Assembly: GCA_025060595.1 (NCBI GenBank)
Contig: JANXBX010000003.1
Location: 90,933 to 154,932, forward strand
DNA: 64,000 nt
Reading direction: 5' to 3'
DNA from: Synergistota bacterium
GTDB lineage: Bacteria; Synergistota; GBS-1
Both the position numbers and the translations under genes were made by a program. Positions 54,227-59,448 of the stretch are shown here, piece by piece. The notes beneath the pieces are model-generated. The model searched no databases and was not told where the DNA came from. It was given only the letters and a program-made list of their open reading frames with translations. Numbering within the stretch: the stretch's first letter is position 1; each line of letters begins with the position of its first letter.

Positions 54227-54796
54227 TCATTTCCTTTTAGGCCCAAAGAGCTTCCTAAGAAAATCTAGCAATTTTGCATCTCCATACCTTGATATAGGAA
54301 CCACCTTTTTAGCCTCCCTAACGTCTTCGATAGTATAGAAAGACTGAGGACTATACTGATAAACTATACTAAGAAAGCGCTCGATCCTCTTCCTTTCAAC
54401 AACGGCAAATATAATCACAATAGGACCTTCCCTTCCCTGAGCATCAACCGTAGTCACGATAAACCCCTCGTCTCTCAAAGCCTTAATCAATGTCTCAGGC
54501 TCTTGTCGTGTTATAACCCTTATAACCACGTTTCCAAGGGCAAGCTTAGCCTCAAGAACCAAACCGACGTAGTTACCACAAGCGAACCCACCAGCAAAGG
54601 CCACATAATATATAGGGCTTGCCAGATGCTTTATTATCTGAGCAGTCACAATTATCCAAAGCAAGGATTCAAAAAAACCTATTAAGCTCGCCTCTAAACG
54701 ACGTCCTCGCGCTAAAAGAACTATACGAACTGTACCCAAGCTAACATCGCATATTCTCGCTAAGAATATCAAAAGCGCTCCTTCTATTAAACCCAT
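54227..54796 (-). CDS. DUF2179 (UPF0316/YebE-like) membrane protein
   Basis: This is a membrane protein of about 189 aa with three N-terminal hydrophobic helices (first with LEARICD-like LIFLARICDVSLGTVRIVLLARG), EASLIGFFESLLWIIVTAQIIKH, and a C-terminal cytoplasmic DUF2179 domain (NVVIRVITRQEPETLIKALRDEGFIVTTVDAQGREG). The family function is unknown. The start is uncertain among ATG 54796, ATG 54808 and a longer TTG 54847. A promoter-like TTGATT-N17-TATCAT just upstream favours the shorter starts, and none has a strong ribosome site. Confidence 0.8.
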   Translation of the reverse strand: MGLIEGALLIFLARICDVSLGTVRIVLLARGRRLEASLIGFFESLLWIIVTAQIIKHLASPIYYVAFAGGFACGNYVGLVLEAKLALGNVVIRVITRQEPETLIKALRDEGFIVTTVDAQGREGPIVIIFAVVERKRIERFLSIVYQYSPQSFYTIEDVREAKKVVPISRYGDAKLLDFLRKLFGPKRK

Positions 54797-54818
54797 TGCC
54801 TCTATCATAACGGCCGTC

Positions 54819-54847
54819 ATGATAGCATAAAAATTGACATAAATCAA
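54819..54847 (-). promoter_or_regulatory. Promoter for the DUF2179 gene
   Basis: Minus-strand TTGATT (54847-54842), 17 bases, TATCAT (54824-54819). It lies immediately after the flagellin terminator stem, so this gene is likely expressed separately from flagellin. Confidence 0.5.
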
Positions 54848-54903: not shown

Positions 54904-57405
54904 TTATCTTAATAACTGAAGAACTGATTGCGGCAGCTGATTAGCTTGAGCAAGCATTGCCACTCCCGATTGATGCAGTATCTGAAGCCTAACGAACTCC
55001 ATCATTTCCTGAGCTATATCAGCATCCCTTATTCTTGACTCAGCTGCCTGAACATTAACCTCCATTATGTTAAGGTTCTTTATGGTATGTTCAAGCCTAT
55101 TTTGAAAAGCACCAAGCTTTGAACGAGCGGTTGAAACCTGCTCTAAAGCTTTGGTTACCTTACTAATAGCAAGCTCCGCTTCCTCCCTTGTTAGGACGGT
55201 TAAGTCTGATATTCCAAGTCCATCAGTATTCAAGGAGTCTATATCAACTCTCATAAGCTCATTTTCATTAGGACCTATATGTAAAAAGAGCGTACCTGAG
55301 GCATCAACCCTTATATCAGCCTCATCCCACCTTTCTCCGTTTATTTCAAAAGAAAGCCCAAGAGGAATAAGCGTATAATTAACATTAGTGGGTGTATAAT
55401 ACTTGTAGTCCTTTATCTTCTTTTCAAGGACTACATGAGATCCCGTTCCCTCTATTATTAGAGTATCAGGACTGTTTATATCATAAGAATTACCATTTTC
55501 ATCCTTCGATGGAACTCTCACCTTAACATTAGTTCCAGAGGAGGCTATAGTCCCATCCTCTATTCCCTCAGTTACATTATCTAAACCGAGCCAATTAATT
55601 AATGTAGCGTTCCCTTCAACTATTATCTTGCTCGAGGGATCACCAGAGGATTGAATTAGGAAAAGATAACTATCACCGTTAACATTTCTATTGTAAGCTT
55701 TGACATTAGTATAAGCCGAGAGATTATTTATCTTTCTTATAACGTTAGAGAGAGTATCAGAAGCATCAATATCTATTCTAACACCATTTATGTATATAGC
55801 ACTTGTAACTCCGGCAGCTACAATTACAGGATCCCCTCCCATAACCCATCTTCTTGGATCATATCGAGTATCATCATGAGCCCAGTGAGTTCTAAAGCCT
55901 ATCCTTTCAAGAAAAGTCGTAGTCACATTAACCATATCCTTATCTTCAAGCTCTATCTTAGTCCCAGGATTTGCAACTAATCTTATATAAGCTCTGTAGT
56001 CCCCGCCACCAGCATCATAATAAGTCAATGTAGCTGTAACCCCTGTTTCAGGAGACTTAGCATTTATTGCATCAACTACTTTATTAAGATCAAGGTCATC
56101 AGCATTACCATCGCCATCGAGATCTTCCGTAGTAACATTTATTTCAACACCATTTACGTAAAATGTATAAGTGGTCCCACTAGGAGTAGCAGTACCATCG
56201 AAGTTTATGAAGTAGGTTCTATTTGTATCATTCACATCAACATCAAATCCTCTCATTTCCATCTGAGTCTGACTCACTCTCGTAGTATTAAAGCCTATCG
56301 CTTGAAGATCTAAATCGTACCTATTAAGTCCTCCCAAAAACTCAACATCTTCCTCTAATACCACATCTCTACCAGAACCTTGAGCGTTTATCCTTATATA
56401 GAGCTTACCACCAATATCAAGAACCTCCGCCCAGACTTGACCCCCCATCTGGGAGTTTATCCTATTAACGACATCTTGCCATGTAGAAGCTCCGCTTAAG
56501 TCCACAGTGGTTCCATTTATCTTTATTAACCTGTCCCCACTAAAAGTGGGACCGGTCCCCGAAAGCTCATTACTTAAAACACTAGGTACAGCACCAAATC
56601 CTAAGTCTTGAAGAAGATCCTGACTACCTGACAATACTATCCTTTTTCCAGAACCTTCTTCAGTCTGAACAAGCTTTAAGTGACCACCTGATCTTTCCGC
56701 TTTAACACCAGTATTATGGGTTTTCTCATTGATCTTATCTATTACATATTGAAGCTTATCTAAGGCAGCTGAGAACTCTGTAGAATTTAAATAAACCGCC
56801 ACACCATTTATAACTATCTCACCGGTATGAATCCTATCTAACGAAGATATATTTGTAACCCCCGTCAGCTCCGCCCTACTTGCCTCCTGATAAATCTTCA
56901 CCTTATAAGTCCCAGGCTGAGTAGAGGGAGAAGCCGTCATATTAGAAACATAAGCATTACCACCAACTTGGTTGATTATAAATGAAAGCTCTCCCGTAAG
57001 AAGCTTTCTTGTATTAAACTGGGCACTTTCACCAATCCTATCTATCTCAGCTTTAAGCTGATCTATTTCCTTTTGAATTTGCTCTCTATCGTAAGAAGTA
57101 TAAGTATCATTTGCAGCCTGAATAGCAAGCTCCCTTATTCTATGGAGAATCGCTTGAACTTCATCAAGCGCTCCTTCCGCAGTTTGAATAAGAGAAATGC
57201 CATCCTGTGCATTTCTCGATGCCTGATGAATGCTTCTTATCTGGGAGCGCATCTTTTCTGAGATAGCCAAACCCGCAGCATCATCAGCTGCACGATTAAT
57301 CCTTAAACCTGAGGAAAGCTTCTCGAGGGTACTTTGCAGTTGACCCGAGGTCACAGTCAACTGCCTGTAGGCTTCCATAGCCGCAATATTATGATTTATT
57401 CTCAT
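54904..57405 (-). CDS. hag: Flagellin, very long form with four tandem IN-type repeats
   Basis: This flagellin has 833 aa, versus 270-500 aa in most bacteria. Terminal D0/D1 domains are intact: RINHNIAAMEAYRQL and SSGLRINRAADDAAGLAISEKM at the start, AAESRIRDADIAQEMMEFVR and QANQLPQSVLQLLR at the end. The middle (about residues 165-690) has four divergent INGxxI...INxxxxxTxVxA repeats at about 197-270, 294-372, 413-504 and 536-608. A DLDGDGNADDLD loop (residues 428-439) fits a DxDxDGxxxxxD calcium site. The ATG at 57405 follows GGGGTGAGGA, buried in leader structure. It is encoded downstream of fliW and csrA. Confidence 0.97.
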   Translation of the reverse strand: MRINHNIAAMEAYRQLTVTSGQLQSTLEKLSSGLRINRAADDAAGLAISEKMRSQIRSIHQASRNAQDGISLIQTAEGALDEVQAILHRIRELAIQAANDTYTSYDREQIQKEIDQLKAEIDRIGESAQFNTRKLLTGELSFIINQVGGNAYVSNMTASPSTQPGTYKVKIYQEASRAELTGVTNISSLDRIHTGEIVINGVAVYLNSTEFSAALDKLQYVIDKINEKTHNTGVKAERSGGHLKLVQTEEGSGKRIVLSGSQDLLQDLGFGAVPSVLSNELSGTGPTFSGDRLIKINGTTVDLSGASTWQDVVNRINSQMGGQVWAEVLDIGGKLYIRINAQGSGRDVVLEEDVEFLGGLNRYDLDLQAIGFNTTRVSQTQMEMRGFDVDVNDTNRTYFINFDGTATPSGTTYTFYVNGVEINVTTEDLDGDGNADDLDLNKVVDAINAKSPETGVTATLTYYDAGGGDYRAYIRLVANPGTKIELEDKDMVNVTTTFLERIGFRTHWAHDDTRYDPRRWVMGGDPVIVAAGVTSAIYINGVRIDIDASDTLSNVIRKINNLSAYTNVKAYNRNVNGDSYLFLIQSSGDPSSKIIVEGNATLINWLGLDNVTEGIEDGTIASSGTNVKVRVPSKDENGNSYDINSPDTLIIEGTGSHVVLEKKIKDYKYYTPTNVNYTLIPLGLSFEINGERWDEADIRVDASGTLFLHIGPNENELMRVDIDSLNTDGLGISDLTVLTREEAELAISKVTKALEQVSTARSKLGAFQNRLEHTIKNLNIMEVNVQAAESRIRDADIAQEMMEFVRLQILHQSGVAMLAQANQLPQSVLQLLR

Positions 57406-57480
57406 GAGTCCTCACCCCATCCTTGTAATCTGCCGCATCCTTGCGCTGTCTAACTTATCCTCATCCGTGAGGACCATTCA
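57406..57480 (-). promoter_or_regulatory. Flagellin leader with three CsrA-type sites and an anti-Shine-Dalgarno element
   Basis: In the predicted sigma-28 transcript (start near 57480), hairpin A has a 6-bp stem and CGGA loop (57473-57458), hairpin B is CGCA-AGGA-TGCG (57445-57434), and TACAAGGATG (57427-57418) matches the CsrA consensus and overlaps the ribosome binding site (57418-57406). GTCCTCAC (57474-57467) is complementary to GTGAGGAC (57415-57408) in that site. It overlaps hairpin A, so the two folds exclude each other. Confidence 0.75.
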
Positions 57481-57487
57481 CTTATCT

Positions 57488-57515
57488 TTATCGGCAAAGG
57501 TGAGGACTCGCTTTA
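57488..57515 (-). promoter_or_regulatory. Sigma-28 (FliA/SigD-type) flagellin promoter
   Basis: Minus strand TAAA (57515-57512), 16 bases, then GCCGATAA (57495-57488), a perfect match to the flagellar sigma -10 consensus. The predicted start is near 57480. It lies just downstream of csrA, giving flagellin its own late promoter. Confidence 0.8.
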
Positions 57516-57521
57516 GAAAAC

Positions 57522-57779
57522 TTATGTCTTTTTCTTTTTTAGCTTTTCAAGTTCTTTTACAACACTTTCTTCAACCTTTTCCTCAACTTGAGCCGCCATT
57601 TGAGCAGCAAGTATGTTTTCCTTAACTATAGCTTCGTATACCTCTTTTCTATGCACGGGAACTCTTTTAGGAGCCTCTATACCAATGCGAACTTGGTCCC
57701 CTCTTATCTCCAAGATCTTTATCTCTATATCATCACCTATCATTATGCTCTGGTTAACCTTCCGACTTAAGACAAGCAC
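57522..57779 (-). CDS. csrA: Translational regulator CsrA
   Basis: CsrA is an RNA-binding dimer that blocks ribosome access at GGA sites. The 85 aa start [24 protein letters not shown], with [22 protein letters not shown] and a basic KKKK tail. I place the start at GTG 57779, because the family opens MLVLxRK and AGGAGG is 9 bases upstream; a TTG at 57785 would add two residues. It follows fliW with overlapping stop and start region, and lies immediately before the flagellin leader, its presumed target. Confidence 0.97.
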
Positions 57780-57781
57780 AG

Positions 57782-58216
57782 TCAAGCTCCTCCTTCAGGA
57801 AAAAGAGGGTAACGAACCGGATAATCTTCATTCAAAGCTATAACTTGTTTAGCCTTTTTATTTTTGATATTTATAACTATAGGAGCCTTTAGGTTAACGG
57901 TAGCATCCTTTGGCTTACCAGCGGGTATTACCATAACAAGAAAAATTATGGCATCCCTGGGATCCTTAAGCTCTATATCCTCAAGATCGCTATCGCTTAT
58001 ATCTACACTAAAGTTTGAGAAAATCTCAAAAGGGTTAATTACAGGAAGGGCTATCTTGGGATCATCAACAGATTGAAGCCATCTTACAAGCTGCCCCTCT
58101 TCTCCTATTACAAAAAAGCTTTTAAGCTCTGGGAAACCTATTAGACCATGAGGCATTAGTATTAGCTTTTCTTCGGGTATCTCGATCTCCCCAAAGCGAA
58201 GGGTATTAACCCTCAA
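57782..58216 (-). CDS. fliW: Flagellar assembly factor FliW
   Basis: FliW binds CsrA and flagellin, relieving CsrA repression when free flagellin is low. The 144 aa begin [32 protein letters not shown] and contain [15 protein letters not shown] and [23 protein letters not shown], all FliW hallmarks. The start is TTG 58216. It is translated with csrA and precedes the flagellin gene, the same partner trio as in Bacillus. Confidence 0.96.
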
Positions 58217-58239
58217 TCCCTCATTCCCCCTCTTTCCAG

Positions 58240-59448
58240 CTACTCAAGGAAATCTATAAGACTGGTTTGAATTATCCTAGCACCAGTTCTTAAGGCTGCC
58301 TGATATATAGCTTGCTGATTGCTCAAGTCCATGACTATCTCTGCAATATCCACATCCTCTATTTTTGAAAGAAGCGAAGTTAGCTGAATCTTGTTATCTT
58401 CAAACCTACTCTGAGTTGCCTCAAGCCTGTTAACCTTAGCCCCAACCCTCGCTCTCATCCTTAAAAGATGATCAAGATAAGCATCGAGCTCTTCAAGCCT
58501 TTCACCGGACAAAGAAGTAACCCTACTATATCTTAAATCCTCACTTATCTTCTGCAATATATCAAATATATCTAAGTTACCAACAAAAACCTTTTCCTCC
58601 TTCTTATCAAGCAAACCTAAGCTACTTAAAACCGAACCAACAGAATCAGAAAGACTCATATGTTCATTAGTTTTAGTTTGAATAACAAGTTTGACCCCAA
58701 TACCATCTGGAACAAGATATGCGTTCACCTTACTCCCTGCCCTCAAATTTATCCTATCAGCTATTATAGAAACGTTCGCTCCAGAAGGAATATCCACTGT
58801 AAAAACACTGCTTCCAACTCTTATGGTAAACGCTCCTGGACCAAATACAGAGGAAGCGAGGTGCATATCGCTTTCTATTCTATACTCAATCCTTTGAGCG
58901 GCAAAAACCTGACTTCCAGGGATATTAACTACTACCCTTTCACCGCTCTCTATCTCCCAGGCCATCTCCCCCTCATCTCCCTGATATATAGCCACGTTAC
59001 TATCTCCAAGAGCGTAAGGCTTGCTTTGCGTCCTAAACCCAGCAAATATATACCTACCTCCTAAAGAGGTATTGGCTATTTGGAGGGCTTCCTCTCTTAA
59101 CTTATCTATTTGATCAGCGATAGCGTCTCTATCTACTTGAGCCAGAGTATCATTAGCTCCCTGGATAACTCTTTCCCTTACAGTATGAATTATAGAAGTC
59201 AATTGATCTAACGCGGATTCCGTAGCGCTTAACCAGCTTATCGCCTCATCCATGTTTTTGGTAAACTGCTCATTCTCATTAAGTACCCTATTTAACCTCA
59301 AACTTCTAACCGAACCTACCGGGTCTTCCTCAGGTAGATCAAACCTCTTGCCCGTTGAAGCTTGATGCTGAAGCTTAAGAAGTTTATCTCTATTACCCAT
59401 CAAATCTGTTAAAAACACACTTGTAAAAACCTTATCGCTCACCCTCAT
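58240..59448 (-). CDS. flgL: Flagellar hook-associated protein FlgL (HAP3)
   Basis: FlgL is the second hook-filament junction protein (402 aa). The flagellin-like N-terminus has QHQASTGKRFDLPEEDPVGSVRSLRLNR; the C-terminus has VGAKVNRLEATQSRFEDNKIQLTSLLSKIEDVDIAEIVMDLSNQQAIYQAALRTGARII. An IN-type segment (FTIRVGSSVFTVDI...INLRAGSKVNAYLVPDG) sits in the middle, similar to the repeats in flagellin. It follows flgK by 9 bases. Confidence 0.95.
   Translation of the reverse strand: MRVSDKVFTSVFLTDLMGNRDKLLKLQHQASTGKRFDLPEEDPVGSVRSLRLNRVLNENEQFTKNMDEAISWLSATESALDQLTSIIHTVRERVIQGANDTLAQVDRDAIADQIDKLREEALQIANTSLGGRYIFAGFRTQSKPYALGDSNVAIYQGDEGEMAWEIESGERVVVNIPGSQVFAAQRIEYRIESDMHLASSVFGPGAFTIRVGSSVFTVDIPSGANVSIIADRINLRAGSKVNAYLVPDGIGVKLVIQTKTNEHMSLSDSVGSVLSSLGLLDKKEEKVFVGNLDIFDILQKISEDLRYSRVTSLSGERLEELDAYLDHLLRMRARVGAKVNRLEATQSRFEDNKIQLTSLLSKIEDVDIAEIVMDLSNQQAIYQAALRTGARIIQTSLIDFLE

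Follow-up and report, generated by a model that had tools for sequence, protein, structure and literature searches.

Flagellin is expensive to produce and has to come last. The closest described counterparts of the flagellin leader presented here belong to Bacillus subtilis hag, for which the work of Yakhnin (2007) and Mukherjee (2011) on CsrA and FliW is summarized in a section of the review PMC7652899, and to Campylobacter jejuni flaA. As at our locus, where the promoter type and the CsrA sites are predicted, FliW and CsrA are co-encoded in B. subtilis, the flagellin promoter is of the sigma-28 type, and the leader carries CsrA sites, one of them at the Shine-Dalgarno (SD) sequence; however, hag has two CsrA sites where our leader has three, and the portions of PMC7652899 and PMC6529632 drawn on here mention no anti-SD copy in either the hag leader or its promoter spacer. 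The flaA leader resembles ours in that ANGGA motifs occupy hairpin loops as well as the ribosome site, that its structure is conserved, and that FliW is the antagonist, but it is 45 nt long with two hairpins, and no read-through lock is described in the corresponding portion of PMC4894983. A FliW-CsrA complex has been solved (5dmb), and according to the relevant section of PMC7652899, a hairpin presenting ANGGAN as a hexaloop is the high-affinity form for CsrA, which can bridge sites 10-63 nt apart.

Here, we analyze the leader of a flagellin gene of a Synergistota bacterium, which lies on the minus strand of a 64,000-nucleotide stretch of DNA (the window, i.e., the whole stretch that was analyzed), and compare it across four genomes of the class, namely, the bacterium's own (G000), G001, G002, and G003.

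Results

The minus strand carries the gene order flgK - flgL - fliW - csrA - fliC. Downstream of flgL (59448-58240) lies fliW (57782-58216; 144 amino acids), whose product is a CsrA antagonist by homology: over its full length, it matches the FliW proteins in 5dmb, 5dmd, and 5jak (E value, 2e-23) and is the one match to PF02623 in the whole genome. The csrA gene (57522-57785, with the stop codon at 57524-57522) encodes 87 amino acids when counted from the first possible start, including a C-terminal extension; its product, the sole CsrA of the genome, matches PF02599 (1.4e-25) and the CsrA chain of the 5dmb complex (2e-18). The gene proposed to be regulated is fliC (54904-57405, with the ATG at 57405-57403), encoding a flagellin of 833 amino acids (PF00669, 2.6e-47). 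The order fliW-csrA-fliC is kept in all four class members. Within 57300-58300, neither a terminator-like nor a sigma-70-like site was found, and Rfam gave no match up to an E value of 5. As far as the sequence can tell, this terminator-free region makes read-through into fliC plausible.

The csrA-fliC gap of 116 nt contains, in this order, TAAA, a 16-nt spacer, GCCGATAA, hairpin A, hairpin B, UACAAGGAUG, and the SD region. A previous sequence-only reading of this DNA had named a sigma-28 promoter, two hairpins exposing CGGA and AGGA followed by TACAAGGATG beside the SD, and two anti-SD copies; when the sequence is read directly, all of these elements are present on the minus strand at the positions given below, and the elements, their conservation, their pairing, and the energies computed for them are matters of observation. 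All four class genomes have this leader in the csrA-fliC gap, with that of G001 being the same as in the MAG 'bacterium 42_11', and a covariance model of the leader gave strong scores in the four class members only among 188 genomes of the phylum. A fifth match (G128; E value, 0.04) was rejected, being another flagellin leader without an anti-SD copy; it has a sigma-28-like site and a hairpin whose loop contains AGGA, and upstream of it lies a terminator-like hairpin with a T-run.

The predicted sigma-28 promoter (57488-57515) consists of TAAA as the -35 element (57515-57512), a 16-nt gap (57511-57496), and GCCGATAA as the -10 element (57495-57488), and it would start transcripts at about 57482-57480. 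The arrangement TAAA-N16-[GA]CCGATAA is kept in all four relatives, reading ACCGATAA in G002. Since the bare pattern TAAA-N14-17-CCGATA is not enriched genome-wide (17 matches versus 25 for the reversed pattern), we base the call on where the site lies, on its full GCCGATAA, and on its conservation in the four species; the -10 element that had been noticed after csrA is present and conserved, with its assignment depending on this context. A short frame, GUG AAU GGU CCU CAC GGA UGA (57481-57461, minus strand), begins at the predicted transcript start, and every one of the four species retains the start and stop codons of this frame, a 3-nt insertion notwithstanding. The window sequence, unlike those of the other species, also has a 21-codon ATG frame (57477-57412, minus strand).

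Each of the four leaders contains three CANGGAUG sites. Site 1 is hairpin A (57457-57474), GUCCUCA[CGGA]UGAGGAU, or TCCTCA[CGGA]TGAGGA in DNA (57473-57458), whose core UCCUCACGGAUGAGGA is invariant in all species and whose loop becomes an ACGGAU hexaloop if an A-U pair opens. Site 2 is hairpin B (57434-57445), CGC[AAGGAU]GCG, or CGCA[AGGA]TGCG in DNA, which is likewise kept in all four; both hairpins show the ANGGAN hexaloop in every species. Site 3 is the single-stranded UACAAGGAUG (57418-57427), directly 5' of the SD region, where UACANGGAUG, found in all four species, adjoins that region without overlapping it. The N of the motif is a base tolerated by CsrA, and it is the sole base that varies inside the CANGGAUG motifs, always being C in hairpin A, A or U in hairpin B, and A, G, C, and G at site 3. 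The distances between the sites (15-41 nt) fit the bridging range given above, which we count in favor of a CsrA target. Two CANGGATG within 33 nt occur at four places in the 1.86-Mb genome, compared with none for the reversed pattern, and two of the four are the fliC leader; the other two were rejected as leaders, which they do not resemble, one lying within an open frame of 288 codons and the other in one of 84 codons. With three CANGGAUG sites in all four species, fliW-csrA immediately upstream, and no terminator, the previous view of this leader as a probable CsrA target is well supported.

The second flagellins of the lineage (L120, L121, L122, and L123, the last being G000:C14), of about 790-810 amino acids where complete, have a promoter-like CCGATAT site, no anti-SD copy, and, in a leader some 150-165 nt long, several ANGGA hairpins; one long stem shows a compensatory change from CACC/GGUG to CGCC/GGCG between G000 and G001. 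These hairpins support a predicted control of flagellins by CsrA in this lineage. A tandem extra copy of the second-type flagellin (L124, G002:C26) has a GGA-rich leader in which no CCGATA promoter was found. A short third flagellin-like protein of 247 amino acids (L125, G000:C6, as well as L126 and L128) combines a sigma-70-like promoter with a leader that is rich in GGA and contains no CsrA-type hairpins.

The SD region GGGUGAGGACUC (57406-57417), nearly invariant in the four species, is the shared partner of both anti-SD copies. GTCCTCAC occurs at 57507-57500 and 57474-57467, and each copy is complementary to GTGAGGAC at 57415-57408, as had been described. For the upstream copy, the complementarity extends to an 11-bp Watson-Crick pairing of GAGTCCTCACC (57509-57499) with GGTGAGGACTC (57416-57406), and its placement before the predicted sigma-28 start was verified in the sequence. 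The whole arm (57498-57509), which pairs with 57406-57417 at -24.2 kcal/mol (p = 0.0005), sits entirely within the promoter spacer, between the predicted -35 and -10 elements, so that it is absent from the predicted sigma-28 transcript and would be found in read-through RNA only. Across the species, this spacer-SD duplex has 13, 13, 15, and, in G002, 10 contiguous pairs including G-U, with energies of -18.7 to -26.4 kcal/mol; against dinucleotide shuffles, p is 0.0005, 0.003, and 0.001 in three species and 0.14 in G002. When the four sequences are aligned, 95.8% of the cells of the helix are paired, compared with 31-60% when it is slid. Four pairs show one-sided changes between Watson-Crick and G-U, one shows a two-sided G-C/A-U change, and two outer pairs are broken in G002 only. 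A point against the lock is that the upstream arm can change from C to U or from A to G with the pairing kept automatically. A column-shuffle control was not exceeded (244/500; four sequences), and covariation alone proves little for this helix with four sequences; of the covariation that had been looked for, the maintained pairing and the two-sided change were found, and an excess over the shuffle control was not.

Folding sets the two predicted transcripts apart. The SD is paired with a probability of 1.0 in the read-through RNA of three species and of 0.57 in G002, where a different register partly takes the place of the exact upstream pairing. The read-through leader folds better than its shuffles (z = -3.55), whereas the sigma-28 leader alone does not (z = -1.2). 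By constrained folding, freeing the SD costs 16.9 (window), 14.8 (G001), 21.7 (G003), and 13.0 (G002) kcal/mol in read-through RNA and 4.3, 4.1, 4.9, and 5.1 kcal/mol, respectively, in the predicted sigma-28 RNA. The energy models were run at 37-65 C, and the gap seen at 37 C (13-22 versus 4.1-5.1 kcal/mol) persists at 65 C (8-14 versus 3.4-4.5 kcal/mol). Among 341 sampled genes of this genome, whose starts were assigned by rule, the median SD cost is 4.0 kcal/mol; the fliC read-through value of 13.9 is the seventh highest, and the fliC upstream:SD duplex (-23.4 kcal/mol in this survey) is the strongest of all genes sampled. The models therefore predict that read-through mRNA would be locked and that sigma-28 mRNA would be close to the genome median. 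The suggestion that fliW-csrA read-through mRNA silences itself gains from conservation, folding, and the genome background and is weakest in G002, by both its shuffle p value and its SD pairing. Among the highest costs of the 341 genes is also that of 54227-54847 (minus strand; 19.9 kcal/mol at the assumed start), which a wrong start or a fliC terminator hairpin just upstream may explain.

No comparable upstream:SD pairing was found in the other csrA-flagellin neighbors (mostly planctomycetes, a Brevibacillus, and G005), where it amounts to -7.8 to -17.8 kcal/mol. The more distant csrA-fliC pair of G005 (L090) keeps CACGGAUG and CAUGGAUG; its gap has no CCGATA promoter and no anti-SD copy. 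Terminator-like runs lie upstream in the Brevibacillus locus (L008) and in G128 (L207), both without an anti-SD arm, and this contrast between terminator and arm fits the idea of a lock, with few cases to draw on. The fliC2 leaders with a sigma-28-like promoter, serving as controls, have ANGGA sites, no anti-SD copy, and spacer duplexes of -2.7 to -7.1 kcal/mol. Among the flagellin loci of the phylum that could be read automatically, a survey from which several loci were left out, the other leaders have SD costs of 1.4-7.6 kcal/mol, with one at 9.3, and the other promoter spacers form SD duplexes of -1 to -14 kcal/mol. A spacer-SD complementarity of -14 kcal/mol (L215; p = 0.01) was treated as chance, as its apparent G127 counterpart (L236) reaches only -4.8. 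In L215 and L237 (G128:C24), which have the same leader, the flagellin gene lies directly 3' of a gene that looks by eye, from its C terminus, to be of the galU type and whose stop codon overlaps the -35 TAAA. In six planctomycete neighbors (L018, L020, L035, L039, L077, and L081), the SD is framed by an inverted repeat, AATC-AAGGAG-GATT, which would place the SD itself in a CsrA-like loop.

The shorter anti-SD copy (57467-57474) is the 5' arm of hairpin A and has 57408-57415 as its alternative partner, with 8 to 10 pairs in the four species. Hairpin A and the short helix cannot form together, and each of them is preserved in all four. Folding of the sigma-28 RNA favors the anti-SD form over hairpin A in every species (P, 0.75-0.99; 0.9-3.3 kcal/mol), while in read-through RNA the SD is taken up by the upstream arm and formation of hairpin A is predicted (about 0.95). 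The choice between the two structures that the sequence-only reading had postulated is structurally plausible in view of their exclusiveness and conservation and draws nothing from covariation, since hairpin A never varies and the test is without power. Since freeing the SD of the sigma-28 RNA has a net cost near the genome median, the short copy would hold translation back no more than mildly when CsrA is absent. We regard the toggle, plausible on structural grounds, as the least secure part of our interpretation; if CsrA bound hairpin A alone, it should free the SD rather than hide it.

Discussion

We consider, with moderate confidence, that repression of flagellin by CsrA under the control of FliW, combined with a lock that depends on the promoter of origin of the RNA, is the best reading of this locus. 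In the first layer, which is very likely, a CsrA dimer would dock on hairpin A and/or hairpin B, bridge to site 3, and block ribosomes; flagellin export would free FliW, which would remove CsrA and lift the block. In the second layer, which we judge to be on balance probable, RNA running on from flgK-flgL-fliW-csrA would carry the additional anti-SD arm, because the sigma-28 promoter spacer contains this arm, and the SD would be sealed in a helix of 10-15 pairs, while RNA begun at the sigma-28 promoter would be without the arm and stay translatable. Flagellin would then be made from sigma-28 transcripts only, i.e., late in flagellar assembly, although no terminator follows the earlier operon. 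Within the sigma-28 RNA, the mutual exclusion of hairpin A and the weaker anti-SD helix may provide a moderate default block. From the features described above we infer where transcripts start, that read-through occurs, that CsrA binds, and every regulatory effect; if CsrA by itself already keeps read-through RNA repressed, part of what the lock does would be redundant.

A simpler explanation is that the three CsrA sites do everything and that both anti-SD copies arose incidentally from an SD rich in G, a look-alike CsrA stem, and a drifted spacer. CsrA-FliW control of flagellin is established, as set out in the portions of PMC7652899, PMC6529632, and PMC4894983 used here, the stem of hairpin A may match the SD by coincidence, and opening the SD of the sigma-28 leader costs only about the genome median. 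However, the upstream copy lies outside any CsrA site and yet is kept in all four species with mostly pairing-compatible changes, and the shuffle p values of 0.0005-0.003 in three species, the strongest upstream:SD duplex of 341 genes, and the just -1 to -14 kcal/mol reached by other flagellin promoter spacers of the phylum speak against coincidence, so that we regard this explanation as possible but unlikely. It is highly improbable that the GTCCTCAC/GTGAGGAC inverted repeat is instead a DNA operator whose spacer copy and near-start-codon copy bind a transcription factor. A repeat between the -35 and -10 elements would occupy a classic repressor position, but the arms are more than 80 bp apart, with complementarity reaching toward the start codon, and several of the changes between species turn Watson-Crick into G-U pairs, which are tolerated in RNA and break symmetry in DNA; RNA fits better.

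The toggle leaves room for CsrA to act in the opposite direction. By stabilizing hairpin A, CsrA could release the anti-SD strand and turn translation on, for which there are precedents with CsrA or RsmA on ymdA, moaA, and phz2 in the section of PMC7652899 devoted to them. The dominance of the anti-SD form in the folded CsrA-free sigma-28 RNA of all four species (0.75-0.99) would suit such an activator, and the shift to hairpin A, at 0.9-3.3 kcal/mol, would be well within the binding energy of CsrA. Nevertheless, the placement of site 3 by the SD and the operon context with FliW and CsrA speak for repression of the kind seen with the Bacillus and Campylobacter flagellins, and the paralogous fliC2 leaders carry CsrA-type sites without an anti-SD switch; activation alone therefore seems very unlikely to us. 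It is conceivable, if rather doubtful, that the switch is biphasic, with CsrA freeing the SD at hairpin A and blocking at site 3, and that the promoter-embedded copy in addition ties translation to the promoter of the RNA; if so, losing site 3 alone would make CsrA an activator of flagellin.

Returning to repression by CsrA with a promoter-of-origin lock, the SD-sequestering helix that CsrA (or RsmA) could undo is shared with Escherichia coli ymdA and Pseudomonas aeruginosa phz2; as far as the cited section of PMC7652899 goes, CsrA activates these genes from sites in or upstream of the sequestering hairpin, whereas our leader has a further site beside the SD. CsrA-FliW control of flagellin is already known, and its combination with a promoter-of-origin lock, which we did not find described, would be a lineage-specific twist; a search by title or abstract, with most subscription papers outside its scope, returned no read-through lock on flagellin. 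If the lock is real, one and the same promoter DNA both provides fliC with a start of its own and encodes the arm by which read-through RNA is silenced, and the cell needs no terminator to keep flagellin behind an earlier operon. The closest likeness to such a lock is found in the phage T4 genes e (lysozyme), soc, 49, and I-TevI, in which RNA initiated upstream forms an SD-sequestering helix as predicted here (PMC3014915). In these genes, a late promoter within or next to the 5' arm yields an armless, translated RNA (PMC3014915), and the physical arrangement described for gene e is the same as that proposed for fliC. The T4 cases are phage lysis and homing genes with late promoters and no CsrA, in contrast to a bacterial flagellin gene with a predicted sigma-28 promoter, and the likeness is one of functional analogy, not kinship. 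If our reading is correct, this trick of phage T4 has been carried into a cellular developmental program and joined there to control by CsrA and FliW.
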